Shown: piece after piece, positions 21,024 to 25,718 of the stretch | Layout of the letters: each line of letters starts with the position of its first letter | Numbering within the stretch: the first letter of the stretch is position 1 | NCBI GenBank assembly: GCA_902761975.1 | Contig: CACWMG010000014.1 | Span: 1 to 32,865, forward strand | Length of the DNA: 32,865 nucleotides | Source of the DNA: Candidatus Avelusimicrobium pecoris | Lineage (GTDB): Bacteria; Elusimicrobiota; Elusimicrobia; Elusimicrobiales; Elusimicrobiaceae | Direction of reading: 5' to 3' | Position numbers and translations under genes: made by a program | The notes under the pieces: model-generated | The model's input: the letters and a program-made list of their open reading frames with translations, nothing else | The model's database searches: none | What the model was told of the DNA's origin: nothing

Positions 21024-22379
21024 TTAATGAGTAAATGCTTTGTTTTGCCATTTGCGGCTACGCCAACGGCGTTCAAATACGGCGGCGCGGATAAGTTCAT
21101 CTAGCGTCATGGCTAGCCAAATACCCACCAGTCCCCAACCAAGCCCAATACCTAGCACATAGGAAAGCAACGTCGCCACGCCCCACATCACAATGACTCC
21201 CGTCCAAAACGGAAAGAAAACATCCCCGGACGCAATTAAAGAATTCACTGCCGTAATGTTCACGGCACGTCCAATTTCCAAAATTACATCCACCCATAGC
21301 ACCAAGCACCCCAGGCGCACCACCTCGGGGTTTTGGGATAAAAACCCAAAAATCTGCCGCCCGAAAAGAGCCGTCAAAAGTGAAATACACATACTTATAA
21401 TCAGTGCCCAACGGATAGAATATTTTTCAATGGAAAACGCCGCCCGGTTGCGTGCGCGCCCCACTAAGTGTCCAATGGTAATGGATGCCCCGTGCCCAAT
21501 GGCAATGGCAAACACGTAGGAAAACATCACAATATGCATGGTATATGTGCGGGCTGTCAGGGCCGCTGTGCCAAGTAGTACGGTAAAATACGTAATCACT
21601 ACTTGCGATAAATCGTACGACAAGTTTTCCCCCGCCCCCGGCAAGCCGACAACAAGCAAATTTTTAAGTTTATCCCACGGGAACGGTTTAAAGTATTTTA
21701 AGGGCGGCACCGGCGACACCTTGGCAAACAAAATCCACGTCAGTAGCACCACCGCCACCAACCGGCACAGCAGGGTGGAAATCCCCGCCCCCACAATGCC
21801 CAAGCGCGGCAATCCCGCGTGCCCAAAAATTAAAAAGTAGTTCCCTATTACATTGATGATGTTAATAAGTAGAGCCACCCACATGGGGTAATAGGCTTTG
21901 TTATGGCTACGCAAAATAGCGCCCAGCGTTAAAATTACCGCCAAGAAAACCGAACTTCCCCCTACTAGCCCCATATACGGCAACCCGTACGTAAATAGGT
22001 GCTCTTTAAGGCCCATCACATGGAGTAATTGCGGTGCAAAGCAATACAACCCCGCACTCACTATCACTCCCAAAAGCAGGTTCACTAACAAAGACACGCC
22101 AATGACTTGTTGCACATTTTTTTCCTGTCGTGCCCCTAAGTATTGCGCACACAATACCGACGTGCCTATCGTAGTAATCACATATACCAAACAAATTAAA
22201 AATACCACTTGATTCACCACCCCGCTAGCCGCTACAGCGTCGTCAGAAAACCGGCTCAGCATAAACACGTCCGTCGCGCCGGTAAGCATGAGGAGAAGCG
22301 TTTCAAAAAAAATCGGGTTAGTTAAATGGAAAAGTTGCCCGCGCAATAATTTAGTTTGGGGGGTTGTAACAAGTTTCAT
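21024..22379 (-). CDS. MATE-family multidrug/cation efflux transporter
   Basis: 451 residues, twelve hydrophobic segments, normal length for MATE/DinF-like antiporters, which export cationic drugs or metabolites using Na+ or H+ gradients. Typical start region FFETLLLMLTGATDVFMLSRFSDDAVAASGVVNQV and repeated half-domain ALTARTYTMHIVMFSYVFAIAIGHGASITIGHLVGRARN. The substrate cannot be inferred. The ATG at 22379 has no Shine-Dalgarno; a perfect TATAAT ends 6 bases upstream. It diverges from the secreted repeat-protein genes. Confidence 0.93.
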   Translation of the reverse strand: MKLVTTPQTKLLRGQLFHLTNPIFFETLLLMLTGATDVFMLSRFSDDAVAASGVVNQVVFLICLVYVITTIGTSVLCAQYLGARQEKNVQQVIGVSLLVNLLLGVIVSAGLYCFAPQLLHVMGLKEHLFTYGLPYMGLVGGSSVFLAVILTLGAILRSHNKAYYPMWVALLINIINVIGNYFLIFGHAGLPRLGIVGAGISTLLCRLVAVVLLTWILFAKVSPVPPLKYFKPFPWDKLKNLLVVGLPGAGENLSYDLSQVVITYFTVLLGTAALTARTYTMHIVMFSYVFAIAIGHGASITIGHLVGRARNRAAFSIEKYSIRWALIISMCISLLTALFGRQIFGFLSQNPEVVRLGCLVLWVDVILEIGRAVNITAVNSLIASGDVFFPFWTGVIVMWGVATLLSYVLGIGLGWGLVGIWLAMTLDELIRAAVFERRWRSRKWQNKAFTH

Positions 22380-22385
22380 AGATAT

Positions 22386-22391
22386 ATTATA
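22386..22391 (-). promoter_or_regulatory. -10 box of the MATE gene, leaderless
   Basis: Minus-strand TATAAT exactly 6 bases before the ATG at 22379; the -35 region is poor. Transcription should start at or next to the start codon. Confidence 0.5.
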
Positions 22392-22451
22392 TAAAAGGTG
22401 GGTGCCGCCAAACTATGCCCACATAAAATTACACACCATTTTCACAAAAAG

Positions 22452-22460
22452 TGCTACAAT
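22452..22460 (+). promoter_or_regulatory. Extended -10 promoter of the secreted repeat-protein pair
   Basis: TGCTACAAT (TACAAT at 22455-22460, TGC at 22452-22454), weak -35. AAAGGAG follows at about 22474-22480 before the ATG at 22489. Confidence 0.6.
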
Positions 22461-22488
22461 AAAGAAAACTTTTAAAGGAGCAACGTAT

Positions 22489-23055
22489 ATGAAAAAACTA
22501 CTTCTACTCATGGTGTTGGTATTAGGTTTTGTAGTTCCGGCTAGCGCCTATCCGCAGGTGGGTAATTTCAAGTTATCCCTCTGGGATAATACAGCAGTAG
22601 CCATTCCTCACAACTATATTCAAAACATTGAAGGGGTAGATTTGGGTATCGGTTCACACTCCTACAATGTTACCGGTTTTCAATGGGATTTAATTTGGGC
22701 CGAGACCCAGTATTTAACGGGTGTAAGCTGGGCCTTTGGGATTAGCAAAACGACCCAAGCCAAAGGGGTACAATGGGCCTTTGTCACCATGGCCGAAGAT
22801 ATGACCGGCGTACAACTGGGCGGCGTCAATATGGCCACTAACACAACCGGGGTACAATTTGGCGGGGTCAATATGTCCCACCGCTCTATCGTTGGGGCGC
22901 AAGTAGGTTTTTACAACCAAGCCGAATATATTAACGGCGTGCAATTTGGGTTTGTCAACTATGCCAAATATATTTACGGTTTGCAATTAGGTATTTTCAA
23001 CATTGCCGAAAACGGCTACTTACCCGCCATGGTATTTATTAACGGACGTTTTTAA
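22489..23055 (+). CDS. Secreted VQxGxVN-repeat protein (LA_2272-like), copy 1
   Basis: 188 residues from the ATG at 22489, chosen for its AAAGGAG and signal peptide; the frame is open further upstream but that part lies before the promoter. Signal peptide MKKLLLLMVLVLGFVVPASA|Y. Mature part: a conserved head FKLSLWDNTAVAIPHNYIQNIEGVDLGIGS, then about six 18-20 residue repeats of type GVQ(W/L/F)GxVNxAxxxxG, ending in GYLPAMVFINGRF. The pattern resembles the LA_2272 family of surface repeat proteins and suggests a repetitive beta structure on the cell surface or in the outer membrane. Function unknown. A paralogue follows 31 bases downstream in the same operon. Confidence 0.8.
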   Translation: MKKLLLLMVLVLGFVVPASAYPQVGNFKLSLWDNTAVAIPHNYIQNIEGVDLGIGSHSYNVTGFQWDLIWAETQYLTGVSWAFGISKTTQAKGVQWAFVTMAEDMTGVQLGGVNMATNTTGVQFGGVNMSHRSIVGAQVGFYNQAEYINGVQFGFVNYAKYIYGLQLGIFNIAENGYLPAMVFINGRF

Positions 23056-23086: not shown

Positions 23087-23605
23087 ATGAAAAAAATCGT
23101 AGTCTTGTTGGCTGCTTTACTCGTGGCCGCGCCTGTATTTGCAGGCAATACCGGATACGTCAAATTGTCCCTCTGGGATAATATTGCCGTAGCCGTACCG
23201 AACAACATCCACAACATTACCGGGTTGGATTTAGGTATTGGTTCTAAAGCCGACACCGTGGACGGCGTTCAGTTTGACTTCATCTATGGCGATGCCCATA
23301 AAGTGCGCGGTGTAAAGTTTGGCCTGGTAGATACGGCTGATATCGTATATGGTATCCAAGGTGGTTTAGTATCCATCAACAACGGCAAAATGCAAGGGTT
23401 GCAAGATGGCTACATCAACTGGTCCGACGGCCAAGTAATCGGTGTACAATGGGGTTTAGTCAACGTAGCTAACCGCATGACCGGTGTACAATTTGGTTTA
23501 GTCAACTATGCCAAACAATTGGAAAACGGCTTACAACTGGGTTTAGTGAACATTGCTAAAAACGGTTGGTTGCCGGTAATGATCATTGTGAACGGCCGCT
23601 TCTAA
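23087..23605 (+). CDS. Secreted VQxGxVN-repeat protein (LA_2272-like), copy 2
   Basis: 172 residues. Signal peptide MKKIVVLLAALLVAAPVFA|G. Shares the head YVKLSLWDNIAVAVPNNIHNITGLDLGIGS and the tail GLQLGLVNIAKNGWLPVMIIVNGRF with the upstream gene; the middle repeats (GVQFDFIY, GVKFGLVDTAD, GIQGGLVSI, GLQDGYINW, GVQWGLVNVA, GVQFGLVNYA) differ more. A tandem duplication with divergence in the exposed repeats is the likely origin. AAGGAG lies about 11 bases before the ATG. Ends at a strong terminator. Confidence 0.8.
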   Translation: MKKIVVLLAALLVAAPVFAGNTGYVKLSLWDNIAVAVPNNIHNITGLDLGIGSKADTVDGVQFDFIYGDAHKVRGVKFGLVDTADIVYGIQGGLVSINNGKMQGLQDGYINWSDGQVIGVQWGLVNVANRMTGVQFGLVNYAKQLENGLQLGLVNIAKNGWLPVMIIVNGRF

Positions 23606-23625
23606 TTTAGTATCAGTTAGATGCA

Positions 23626-23656
23626 AAACCGTCCCTCTTGTAGGGGCGGTTTTTTT
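23626..23656 (+). terminator. Rho-independent terminator overlapping the rpsB promoter
   Basis: AAACCGTCCCT (23626-23636), 5-base loop, AGGGGCGGTTT (23642-23652), then more T. The rpsB -35 box lies in its loop and right arm. Confidence 0.88.
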
Positions 23657-23666
23657 ATGCTATAAT
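23638..23666 (+). promoter_or_regulatory. rpsB promoter
   Basis: TTGTAG (23638-23643), 17-base spacer, perfect TATAAT (23661-23666) with TGC extension. The spacer is the T-tract and right arm of the preceding terminator. Expected start about 23673, leaving a leader of about 122 bases. Confidence 0.75.
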
Positions 23667-23672
23667 TTCTAT

Positions 23673-23794
23673 AGGTGAAACTGAGCGGCAGGGCGCAACC
23701 TGTTCGTAAATTCAAGCCCATGCCGACGTCACCCAGGCAACTGCCACCAAGGTATCCTCTACCTTAATTTAGGCACGCGCCACAGGAGAAAAAC
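23673..23794 (+). promoter_or_regulatory. Structured 5' leader of rpsB
   Basis: The leader can fold into nested stems: GGTGA (23674-23678) with TCACC (23729-23733) enclosing CGGCAGGGC (23686-23694) with GCCC-A-TGCCG (23716-23725). A second hairpin, AAGGTA (23749-23754) with TACCTT (23760-23765), follows. An alternative pairing exists (GGCAG 23687-23691 with CTGCC 23741-23745; CCTG 23699-23702 with CAGG 23734-23737). The TCCT in the second loop could pair with AGGA of the Shine-Dalgarno (23784-23787). This suits a ribosomal-protein autoregulatory leader, possibly bound by S2. I do not recognise a known riboswitch. Confidence 0.5.
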
Positions 23795-24835
23795 ATGAGT
23801 AACGTATCTATGAAATCCATGCTGGAAGCCGGTGTACACTTTGGTCACCAAACCTCCCGCTGGAACCCCAAAATGGGCCGCTTTATCTTTGGTGAAAGAA
23901 ACGGCGTGCACATTTTAGACTTACAAAAAACCGCTAAAGAACTTAAAAAAGCCTGTGCTTTTGTAAAAGAAGAAAGCAAAAAAGGTTCCAAATTTTTGTT
24001 CGTCGGTACTAAAAAACAAGCCCAAGAAGCCATCAAGGCCGAAGCGGCCCGCGCCGGTGCGTATTGCATTAGCGAAAAATGGCTGGGCGGCACTTTAACC
24101 AACTTCCAAACGGTTAAAAAATCCATTGAACGCATGAACGAGCTGGAAAAATGGGAATCCTCCGGCGTATTTAAAGCCATTTCCAAAAAAGAAGCCAGCC
24201 GCTTGTCTAAGGAACTGGCCCGCTTGCAAAAATTACTGGGCGGCATCCGCGATATGAAAGTACTGCCGGATGTGGTCTTTGTAATTGACCCCGTGGACAC
24301 CATGGGCGCGGTGCGCGAATCGCACGTGCTCGGGATCCCGGTGGTAGCCGTGTGCGACACCAATGCCGACCCGGATTTGATTTCCTTGCCTATCCCCGGT
24401 AACGACGACGCCGCCCGCTCTATTAAACTATTCTGCGGTGCGATTGCCGATTCTATCTTAGAAGGCAAAGCCGAATTGGAAGCCGTCAAAGAAGTCAACG
24501 CCGGCAACACCGTAGCCGCCGCCGAAAACCCGGCTATGGCCCAAGCGTTTGAAAGCGCCATGTTAGCTGCTGAAAAAGCCGAAGAAGAAAAACCGGCTGA
24601 AGTAGTTGTGGAAGAAGTAGTGGTAGAAGAAGCCCCCGCTAAAGAAGAAGTAAAAGCCGAAGAAAAACCGGCCAAAAAAGCGGCTGCTAAAAAGACCACT
24701 GCCAAAAAAACCACCGCTAAAAAAGCGACCGAAGGCGAAGAAGAAAAACCGGCTAAAAAAGTAGCGGCCAAAAAACCGGCTGCTAAAAAAACAACTGCCA
24801 AAACTAAAAAAGCAGCTGAAGAAGAAGCCAAATAA
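23795..24835 (+). CDS. rpsB: 30S ribosomal protein S2 with long charged C-terminal tail
   Basis: 346 residues. Residues 1-240 are standard S2 ([100 protein letters not shown]). S2 is needed for late 30S assembly and docking of S1. From about 262 an acidic segment (262-290) and then a basic, histone H1-like tail of AKK(T/P)-type repeats (291-340) add about 85 residues beyond the usual length. AGGAG precedes the ATG. First gene of a cluster with tsf and pyrH, the usual order. Confidence 0.97.
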
Positions 24836-24896: not shown

Positions 24897-25718
24897 ATGT
24901 CTTTAATGGACGATATTAAAACCTTGCGCGACAAAACCGGCGCAGGGATGATGGATTGCAAAAAAGCCCTTTTGGAATGCAAAAACGACATGGAACAAGC
25001 CATTGTTTACTTGCGCAAAAAAGGGTTAGCCGCTATGGCTAAACGCGCCGACCGCGAAACCAAAGAAGGAAGAGTCGCCGTCAAAACCGACGGTAAAAAC
25101 TTTGCCATGGTCTATTTAGGTTGCGAAACCGACTTTGTAGCCAAGACCGACGGTTTTATTAACCTAGCCAACCAACTGGCCGACTACGTTTTGGCGCACC
25201 CCGGCGTAAACTACGACACGGACGAAACGATTAAAGCCAAAATTGCCGAAGAAGCCCCCAAATTTGGGGAAAACACCACCTTCAAAGGGGCCTATAACTG
25301 GACCCCGGCCGACGGCGCGGTAATGGCCTATTACGTACACTCGGACAACAAAAAAGCCTCCCTGTTGGAGCTTGCTGTTGCCGGCAACGTAGATAAAGCC
25401 AAAGCCACCGAAATTGCCCGCGGGCTTGCCATGCACACCGTGGGGATGCAAACCGGGTGGATTAAGGCCGAAGATATCCCGCAAGACGTGATTGACAAAG
25501 AATTGGATATCTACAAAACCCAAGCCTTAAACGAAGGTAAATCCGAAATGGCCATTGAAAAAATGTTGCCCGGCAAAGTGAAAAAATTTGCCAAAGAAAA
25601 CTGCCTCTTAGAACAAGGCACTATTAAGGACAACAAAAAAACCGTGGCCGATTACTTAAAAGAAGAGTCCCAAGCGTTAGGCGGCGAACTGACCGTTACG
25701 CGCTTTGTACGGTTTTAA
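24897..25718 (+). CDS. tsf: Translation elongation factor Ts
   Basis: 273 residues. Nucleotide exchange factor of EF-Tu. N-terminal UBA-like module with the signature TLRDKTGAGMMDCKKALLECKNDMEQAIVYLRKKG, then the core with KEGRVAVKTDGKNFAMVYLGCETDFVAKTDGF and the second half (VAGNVDKAKATEIARGLAMHTV). AGGAG lies about 8 bases before the ATG. Follows rpsB, with its own strong terminator, so rpsB-tsf form one transcription unit and pyrH starts a new one. Confidence 0.98.
   Translation: MSLMDDIKTLRDKTGAGMMDCKKALLECKNDMEQAIVYLRKKGLAAMAKRADRETKEGRVAVKTDGKNFAMVYLGCETDFVAKTDGFINLANQLADYVLAHPGVNYDTDETIKAKIAEEAPKFGENTTFKGAYNWTPADGAVMAYYVHSDNKKASLLELAVAGNVDKAKATEIARGLAMHTVGMQTGWIKAEDIPQDVIDKELDIYKTQALNEGKSEMAIEKMLPGKVKKFAKENCLLEQGTIKDNKKTVADYLKEESQALGGELTVTRFVRF

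Follow-up and report, generated by a model that had tools for sequence, protein, structure and literature searches.

In Candidatus Avelusimicrobium pecoris, the RNA leader of rpsB most likely serves as a brake that lets ribosomal protein S2 limit its own production, and it is built unlike the S2 brake of Escherichia coli. The leader was found in a window of 32,865 nucleotides (the whole stretch of DNA that was analysed) on contig C14 of a 1.24-Mb draft genome, and we put the probability at about 0.68 that it is a new type of S2 leader, distinct in structure, that controls rpsB-tsf autogenously at the level of translation.

The leader region sits between a terminator-like hairpin of the upstream gene (23625-23653, simple terminator scan) and the rpsB ATG at 23795. 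Directly after this terminator lies an extended -10 element, TGC-TATAAT (23658..23666, + strand). The TGN extension before TATAAT was present in 62 of 74 homologous leaders, and the distance from the end of TATAAT to the ATG was 125-139 nt in the 74 leaders; a consensus promoter scan, which requires a -35 box, listed no sigma-70 promoter at the leader. The gene that follows, rpsB (23795..24835, + strand), encodes ribosomal protein S2 (PF00318, E = 3.1e-90, residues 9-224 of 346), and the next genes are tsf (24897..25718, + strand), encoding elongation factor Ts (PF00889, E = 1.6e-44), and an amino acid kinase family gene which, from its position, we take to be pyrH. Beyond the Pfam domain, S2 carries a C-terminal tail of ~120 residues rich in Lys, Ala and Thr (window 24470-24835), and the rpsB open frames across the genus mostly have 343-413 codons; the long Lys/Ala-rich tail could aid RNA binding. 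By eye, the two adjacent proteins encoded upstream (22288-23055 and 23087-23605) share similar repeats such as GVQFGLVN. Neither of them had a Pfam match, and the leader promoter lies immediately behind the terminator of the second repeat-protein gene.

The whole conserved leader RNA (23672..23788, + strand) is made up of two consecutive unbranched stems, D1 and D2, and the Shine-Dalgarno (SD) sequence. It scored 135.3 bits with covariance model R1 and 122.7 bits with R2, the source leader itself being among the training sequences of both models. The MFE and centroid structures of 23673-23797 agreed on an outer stem, a bulged 9-bp stem, a 6-bp hairpin and two further helices, P4 and P5. In D1, the outer stem P1 (23674-23678/23729-23733, + strand), whose fifth pair (23678/23729) was left out of the model, encloses P2/P3 (23686-23690/23721-23725 and 23691-23694/23716-23719, + strand), a 9-bp stem (23686-23694/23716-23725) with a single bulged A at 23720. 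D2 is built from P4 (23736-23738/23779-23781, + strand), P5 (23742-23745/23772-23775, + strand) and the P6 hairpin with the loop UCCUC (23749-23754/23760-23765, + strand). The original prediction, made from the window alone, had described a 5-bp outer stem, a 9-bp stem with one bulge and a 6-bp second hairpin, all of which are borne out by the MFE and centroid structures and by the covariation described here; P4 and P5, the short helices closing the second hairpin, were absent from that description. The folding energy was unremarkable (z = -1.41, with 21 of 200 shuffles equally stable). Since the energy alone was ordinary, comparison with homologues was needed.

The homologues were rpsB upstream regions from the genus and from other members of the family. 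In a first-stage test, a hand-written structure of 26 pairs was applied to alignment A2, which held 29 of the 36 leaders L009-L044. In these 29 leaders, 97.6% of the cells were paired, 14 pairs were changed on both sides, and the score was 0.392 compared to 0.134 for shuffled and at most 0.097 for slid controls, with further pair types at the shuffle level (29 compared to 27.5). RNAalifold applied to A1, the first MAFFT alignment (52 leaders, without L061 and L062), gave 20 pairs, 15 of them double-changed, and missed P1 because MAFFT had misaligned P1 between clades; the larger alignment, A3, was therefore aligned with a model. This model, R1, was built from the hand-written structure and recovered 75 leaders among 84 sources, the nine sources without a match being L100, L120, L121, L065, L066, L069, L128, L132 and L134. 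Across the 75 homologues of A3, 95.1% of the pair cells were standard, 24 of the 26 pairs had changed on both sides (386 such cells), and the covariation score was 0.577 compared to 0.188 for shuffled and at most 0.137 for slid controls, with pair counts that lean toward the structure because A3 was fitted to the model. The double changes were spread over P1 (4 of the 4 modelled pairs, 95.3% of cells paired), P2/P3 (8 of 9, 89.4%), P4 (3 of 3, 98.6%), P5 (3 of 4, 98.3%) and P6 (6 of 6, 99.1%).

When all 6441 column pairs of the same model-fitted alignment were ranked, the 13 strongest were pairs of the structure and 23 of the 26 structure pairs fell within the first 77, the other three ranking 233rd, 2201st and 2934th. 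Furthermore, parsimony on a tree of rpsB coding sequences counted 169 double changes that preserved the pair, 50 single changes that did so, 44 breaks and 21 repairs, compared to 1-12 double events and 171-233 breaks in controls in which the 3' partner was slid by 1-3 columns; these event numbers are rough, since 21 of the 74 tips had < 150 nt of coding sequence. Throughout, L062 (12 nt of leader) was excluded, and L001-L008, which duplicate other loci, were unused. L063, at a contig end, was excluded from the tree, alternative-pairing, P4-SD and accessibility tests, leaving 74 leaders, and was kept for the loop-length and pair counts (75 rows). Compensatory changes are thus abundant among related rpsB leaders, clearly the opposite of the lack of such changes in the stems that the original prediction had named as its refutation. 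On this comparative evidence, we conclude that the leader structure is real and conserved.

Weak spots were seen at pair 24/52 (window 23692/23718), non-standard in 24 of 75 leaders (23 A-C and 1 U-C), at pair 16/59 (18 of 70) and at pair 20/56 (16 of 67; A3 columns). The A-C combination at pair 24/52 in 23 of the 75 leaders is possibly a protonated wobble. Strong covariation (14th of 6441) was also found between A3 columns 94 and 122 (window 23746/23771), which flank P5 in the D2 internal loop. These columns are not Watson-Crick (A/A in 32, G/U in 26, G/A in 6, A/C in 5 and G/G in 5), and their covariation could reflect either a tertiary pair or shared ancestry.

Two unpaired segments are strongly conserved. 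The apical loop of D1 (23695..23715, + strand) follows the pattern GNAA...NGUAAAU.CAAA, and is 20-22 nt long in 75 rows; GUAAA, GCAAA or GAAAA is in register in all but one of the 75 rows, and that row is shifted. In the D2 internal loop, the conserved segment is on the 3' side: AAUUUA (23766..23771, + strand), with AAUU in 74 of the 74 rows that reach there. A mini-hairpin inside the D1 loop (GCAAC/GUUGC), present in one clade, was rejected because, by eye, the other clades do not keep it. The UAAAU in the D1 loop could pair with the AAUUU in D2 over ~4 bp (AAAU:AUUU). This contact is so nearly invariant that covariation cannot support a D1-D2 pairing, and the positions flanking it do not vary as pairs (A3 rows by eye and the column-pair scan). 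The large conserved apical loop of D1 is the probable recognition site. A large, highly conserved unpaired loop on a covarying scaffold would also suit a small-molecule riboswitch, in which the D1 loop would be a ligand pocket tying ribosome production to a metabolite, and the distribution of the leader bears on this reading.

In this analysis, g1 and g8-g12 are labels of genera and f2 is the label of a sister family. A DNA search within the genus gave matches in 56 of 66 genomes. With R2 (E <= 0.1), the leader was found in 75 of 340 genomes of the phylum Elusimicrobiota, all of one family (56 in g1, 18 in g11 and 1 in g8), and with R1 (E <= 1) in 75 of 231 genomes of the class; one of these, an f2 match at E = 0.57, is probably a chance hit. 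Of the 66 g1 genomes, 57 yielded an rpsB, and 56 of these have the leader; in the lone exception, G047, the contig begins 12 nt before rpsB. All 18 of the 18 g11 genomes carry it. The leader lies directly before rpsB in 74 of the 75 R2-positive genomes; in G050, the leader and rpsB are at the ends of two separate contigs. The source genome has a single strong match (E = 1.4e-24), the next being at E 0.79. G003 has a further, truncated copy at the end of a contig (C18:1-70, minus strand, E 3.1e-8, R1), perhaps a strain variant within the genome bin. R2 did not find the leader in G086 (g8) or G108 (g12), and in G086 its sole matches, at E 3.5 and 8, lie at other sites. The rpsB leaders of both genomes nevertheless fold, by energy alone and as judged by eye, into two consecutive stems arranged in the same way: UAAAU lies in the first loop, and AAUUU lies in the internal loop of the second stem. 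No such leader was seen by eye upstream of rpsB in G089 (g10), and rpsB was not found in G085 (g8) or G088 (g9). In GTDB r220, the exact D1-loop pattern occurred in 11 stretches that appear to correspond to g1 contigs already known to carry the leader, 7 labelled Elusimicrobia or Elusimicrobiales and 4 labelled 'uncultured bacterium'.

Riboswitches usually also occur before metabolic genes. Instead of several genes of one metabolic theme, this leader precedes rpsB only, except in one copy at a contig end, where the downstream gene is lacking, and a small-molecule riboswitch is therefore unlikely. With essentially one copy per genome, placed before rpsB of rpsB-tsf, S2 is a plausible ligand, as judged from gene order. 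The ligand might instead be another protein such as EF-Ts, S1 or another r-protein, since tsf directly follows rpsB; however, rpsB is the first gene of the operon, and we know of no precedent for EF-Ts as a leader ligand. S1 assists S2 in E. coli, according to passages of PMC10931766. On balance, we consider a ligand other than S2 among the proteins improbable.

The original prediction had not recognised a known family, and the Rfam scan agrees: at gathering scores, Rfam 15 had no match in the window, nor in 20 related loci. At E <= 10, the leader region gave 14 matches, all sub-gathering, mostly over the upstream terminator and none of them t44. Rfam does hold an S2-leader model, since t44 (RF00127) matched the E. 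coli rpsB leader, our positive control, at 83.5 bits. In the source genome, t44 had no match at E <= 10, and 0 of 231 class genomes had a match over its cut-off (44 bits); one class match at E = 0.09 was in G004, on a different contig from the rpsB leader of that genome. t44 appears to be the same thing as the published rpsB motif, which passages of PMC2704228 describe as a three-stem junction with a pseudoknot that leads rpsB-tsf in Proteobacteria and is reported also in Cyanobacteria and some Firmicutes.

The leader studied here is like t44 in its site upstream of rpsB-tsf, in being a structured 5' UTR and in its conserved unpaired segments; its SD likewise lies outside the conserved stems, as passages of PMC10931766 place the RBS outside the E. 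coli operator. It might thus be a divergent member of the t44/rpsB motif, which has a long P1, a three-way junction and a J2-3 pseudoknot with a 3' extension of P1. The gene and the operon are the same, and UAAAU in the D1 loop with AAUUU in D2, over ~4 bp, would be a comparable long-range contact. However, whereas t44 has a three-way junction, the covariation-supported fold of this leader has two stems in a row and no junction, the leader has no covariance-model match to t44 and belongs to another phylum, and the 4-bp contact is nearly invariant and so beyond covariation support. Membership in t44 was rejected because no match of at least 44 bits was obtained and the fold differs, and we regard a divergent t44 as very unlikely.

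The 20 candidate ribosomal leaders of Eckert et al. (2020; PMC7247131) are, according to passages of that paper, likewise lineage-restricted, found by comparison and assigned a ligand by a guess from the operon. The part of its table that was examined contains no S2 leader; in the text of the paper, rpsB appears once, within an L13 entry, and 'Elusimicrobi' does not appear. We found no description of the present leader in Rfam 15 or in literature searches at title and listing level. Taken together, the compensatory changes and the lack of an Rfam family agree well with the structured, feedback-type rpsB leader that had been proposed: that the leader is a regulatory RNA is well supported.

How the leader would act on translation depends on the SD sequence AGGAG (23784..23788, + strand), which lies outside the conserved stems and faces the organism's own 16S 3' end, ...GGATCACCTCCTTT. 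Given this position, translation could be blocked only sterically. In the source leader, D2 ends 3 nt before the SD core GGAG. Among the 73 leaders with GGAG there, the gap between the end of P4 and GGAG was always 3-7 nt and in 39 of them exactly 3 nt; a protein bound at this distance would hinder the 30S subunit. The probability that GGAG is unpaired averaged 0.63 over 73 leaders (L101 was left out of this mean, its counted GGAG lying in D2 and not in the SD). In the source sequence GGAG is only 39% unpaired by energy (0.39), so other pairings may partly mask it there.

The original prediction had gone further and proposed that the leader switches between folds that exclude each other, the loop of the second hairpin masking the SD and both arms of the first stem being able to pair with a downstream segment. 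In the source sequence itself, the required pairings exist: the loop can pair with the SD over 4 bp (UCCU:AGGA), and the arms have alternative pairings of 5 bp and 4 bp. In addition, the D2 hairpin loop is kept as NCCYC in 67 of 74 leaders. Over the 74 leaders, however, the loop-SD complementarity reached 4 bp in 28, stopped at 3 bp in 43 and was shorter in 3, so that 46 of 74 had a match of at most 3 bp; the 4-bp matches were somewhat commoner than with shuffled loops (38% compared to 22%) and so stand little above chance. The alternative fold fared no better than shuffled segments, the 5' arm pairing over at least 5 bp in 13.5% compared to 12.8% of shuffled segments and the 3' arm in 8.2% compared to 23.7%. 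The arm and loop matches being near or below shuffled levels, neither pairing is supported as a mechanism, and both were rejected as conserved features. Of the readings weighed here, such a switch is the least likely by our estimate, with hardly any weight.

Transcription attenuation was also considered. A simple scan of 23560-23860 listed only the terminator of the upstream gene (23625-23653) and no intrinsic terminator in the leader, so the terminator by which an attenuator would be recognised was not found. Of the features expected of r-protein leaders, this leader has one, a conserved and structured 5' UTR ahead of an r-protein operon, and lacks another, a resemblance in letters to the site that the protein binds on rRNA. 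Compared by letters with its own 16S, the leader shares 3 8-mers and no 9-mers, while mononucleotide shuffles share 2.6 8-mers on average and 87 of 200 shuffles share as many; sequence mimicry of 16S was rejected because the shared 8-mers are at chance. An apparent string likeness of the D1 loop to E. coli 16S around h35-36 does not change this, as the pairing scheme assumed for it was wrong. Passages of PMC10931766 likewise indicate an E. coli S2 operator without visible rRNA likeness. They further describe translational repression of rpsB-tsf by S2 in E. coli, assisted by S1, with the RBS outside the operator. A leader that is confined to rpsB, shows no terminator in the scan and ends its P4 3-7 nt before GGAG fits this E. 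coli-type mode.

Autoregulation by S2 could then proceed as follows. The transcript would start just downstream of the extended -10 element, within a few bases, and the leader would thus begin at P1; D1 and D2 would fold without rearrangement. Free S2, possibly together with S1 as in E. coli, would bind the D1 apical loop and the D2 internal loop and clamp both stems together beside the SD, which would block 30S loading. Output of rpsB would fall, and that of tsf would fall too, by coupling. In this scheme, we infer the transcription start, S2 as the ligand, repression as the sign and steric block as the means.

A second rpsB leader was found in the sister family f2. The motif GAAAUCCUGCYCC...GCGGGAAAAGAAMCG lies close before the SD in 12 of 19 f2 rpsB upstream regions and is absent in 7. 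This leader is nearly invariant, with the pattern GAAATCCTGCYCC(n)GCGGGAAAAGAAMCG (L065, L066, L068, L069, L128, L129, L132-L136 and L151), and L068 and L135 have an insertion of ~80 nt in its loop. Among the 231 class genomes, 32 had the exact pattern, once each, and all 32 belong to the 56 listed f2 genomes; backward controls gave zero matches. It was located just upstream of rpsB in 29 of the 29 genomes with known rpsB coordinates, which excludes G132, G133 and G156. Rfam had no match in ten scanned loci with this leader. The f2 leader is too invariant for covariation to be tested on it. Like the D1/D2 leader, it belongs to the same gene in the same order, with one exact match per genome where present; unlike the D1/D2 leader, it is one short, nearly invariant hairpin-like segment and, by eye, has no likeness to it in sequence or layout.

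The existence of this separate leader supports lineage specificity of the rpsB leaders within the order. Tentatively, and at somewhat less than even odds, S2 feedback leaders may have arisen several times for the same operon (t44, the D1/D2 leader and the short f2 hairpin), and the D1 and D2 loops may join in three dimensions, UAAAU with AAUUU, as a split site that mimics the two distant 16S regions contacted by S2, h26 and h35-37, without sequence likeness. These results collectively suggest that one r-protein operon has leaders of unrelated RNA shape even in sister families, and such leaders would allow a direct test of the way in which a single conserved protein might recognise several RNAs that are unrelated to one another.
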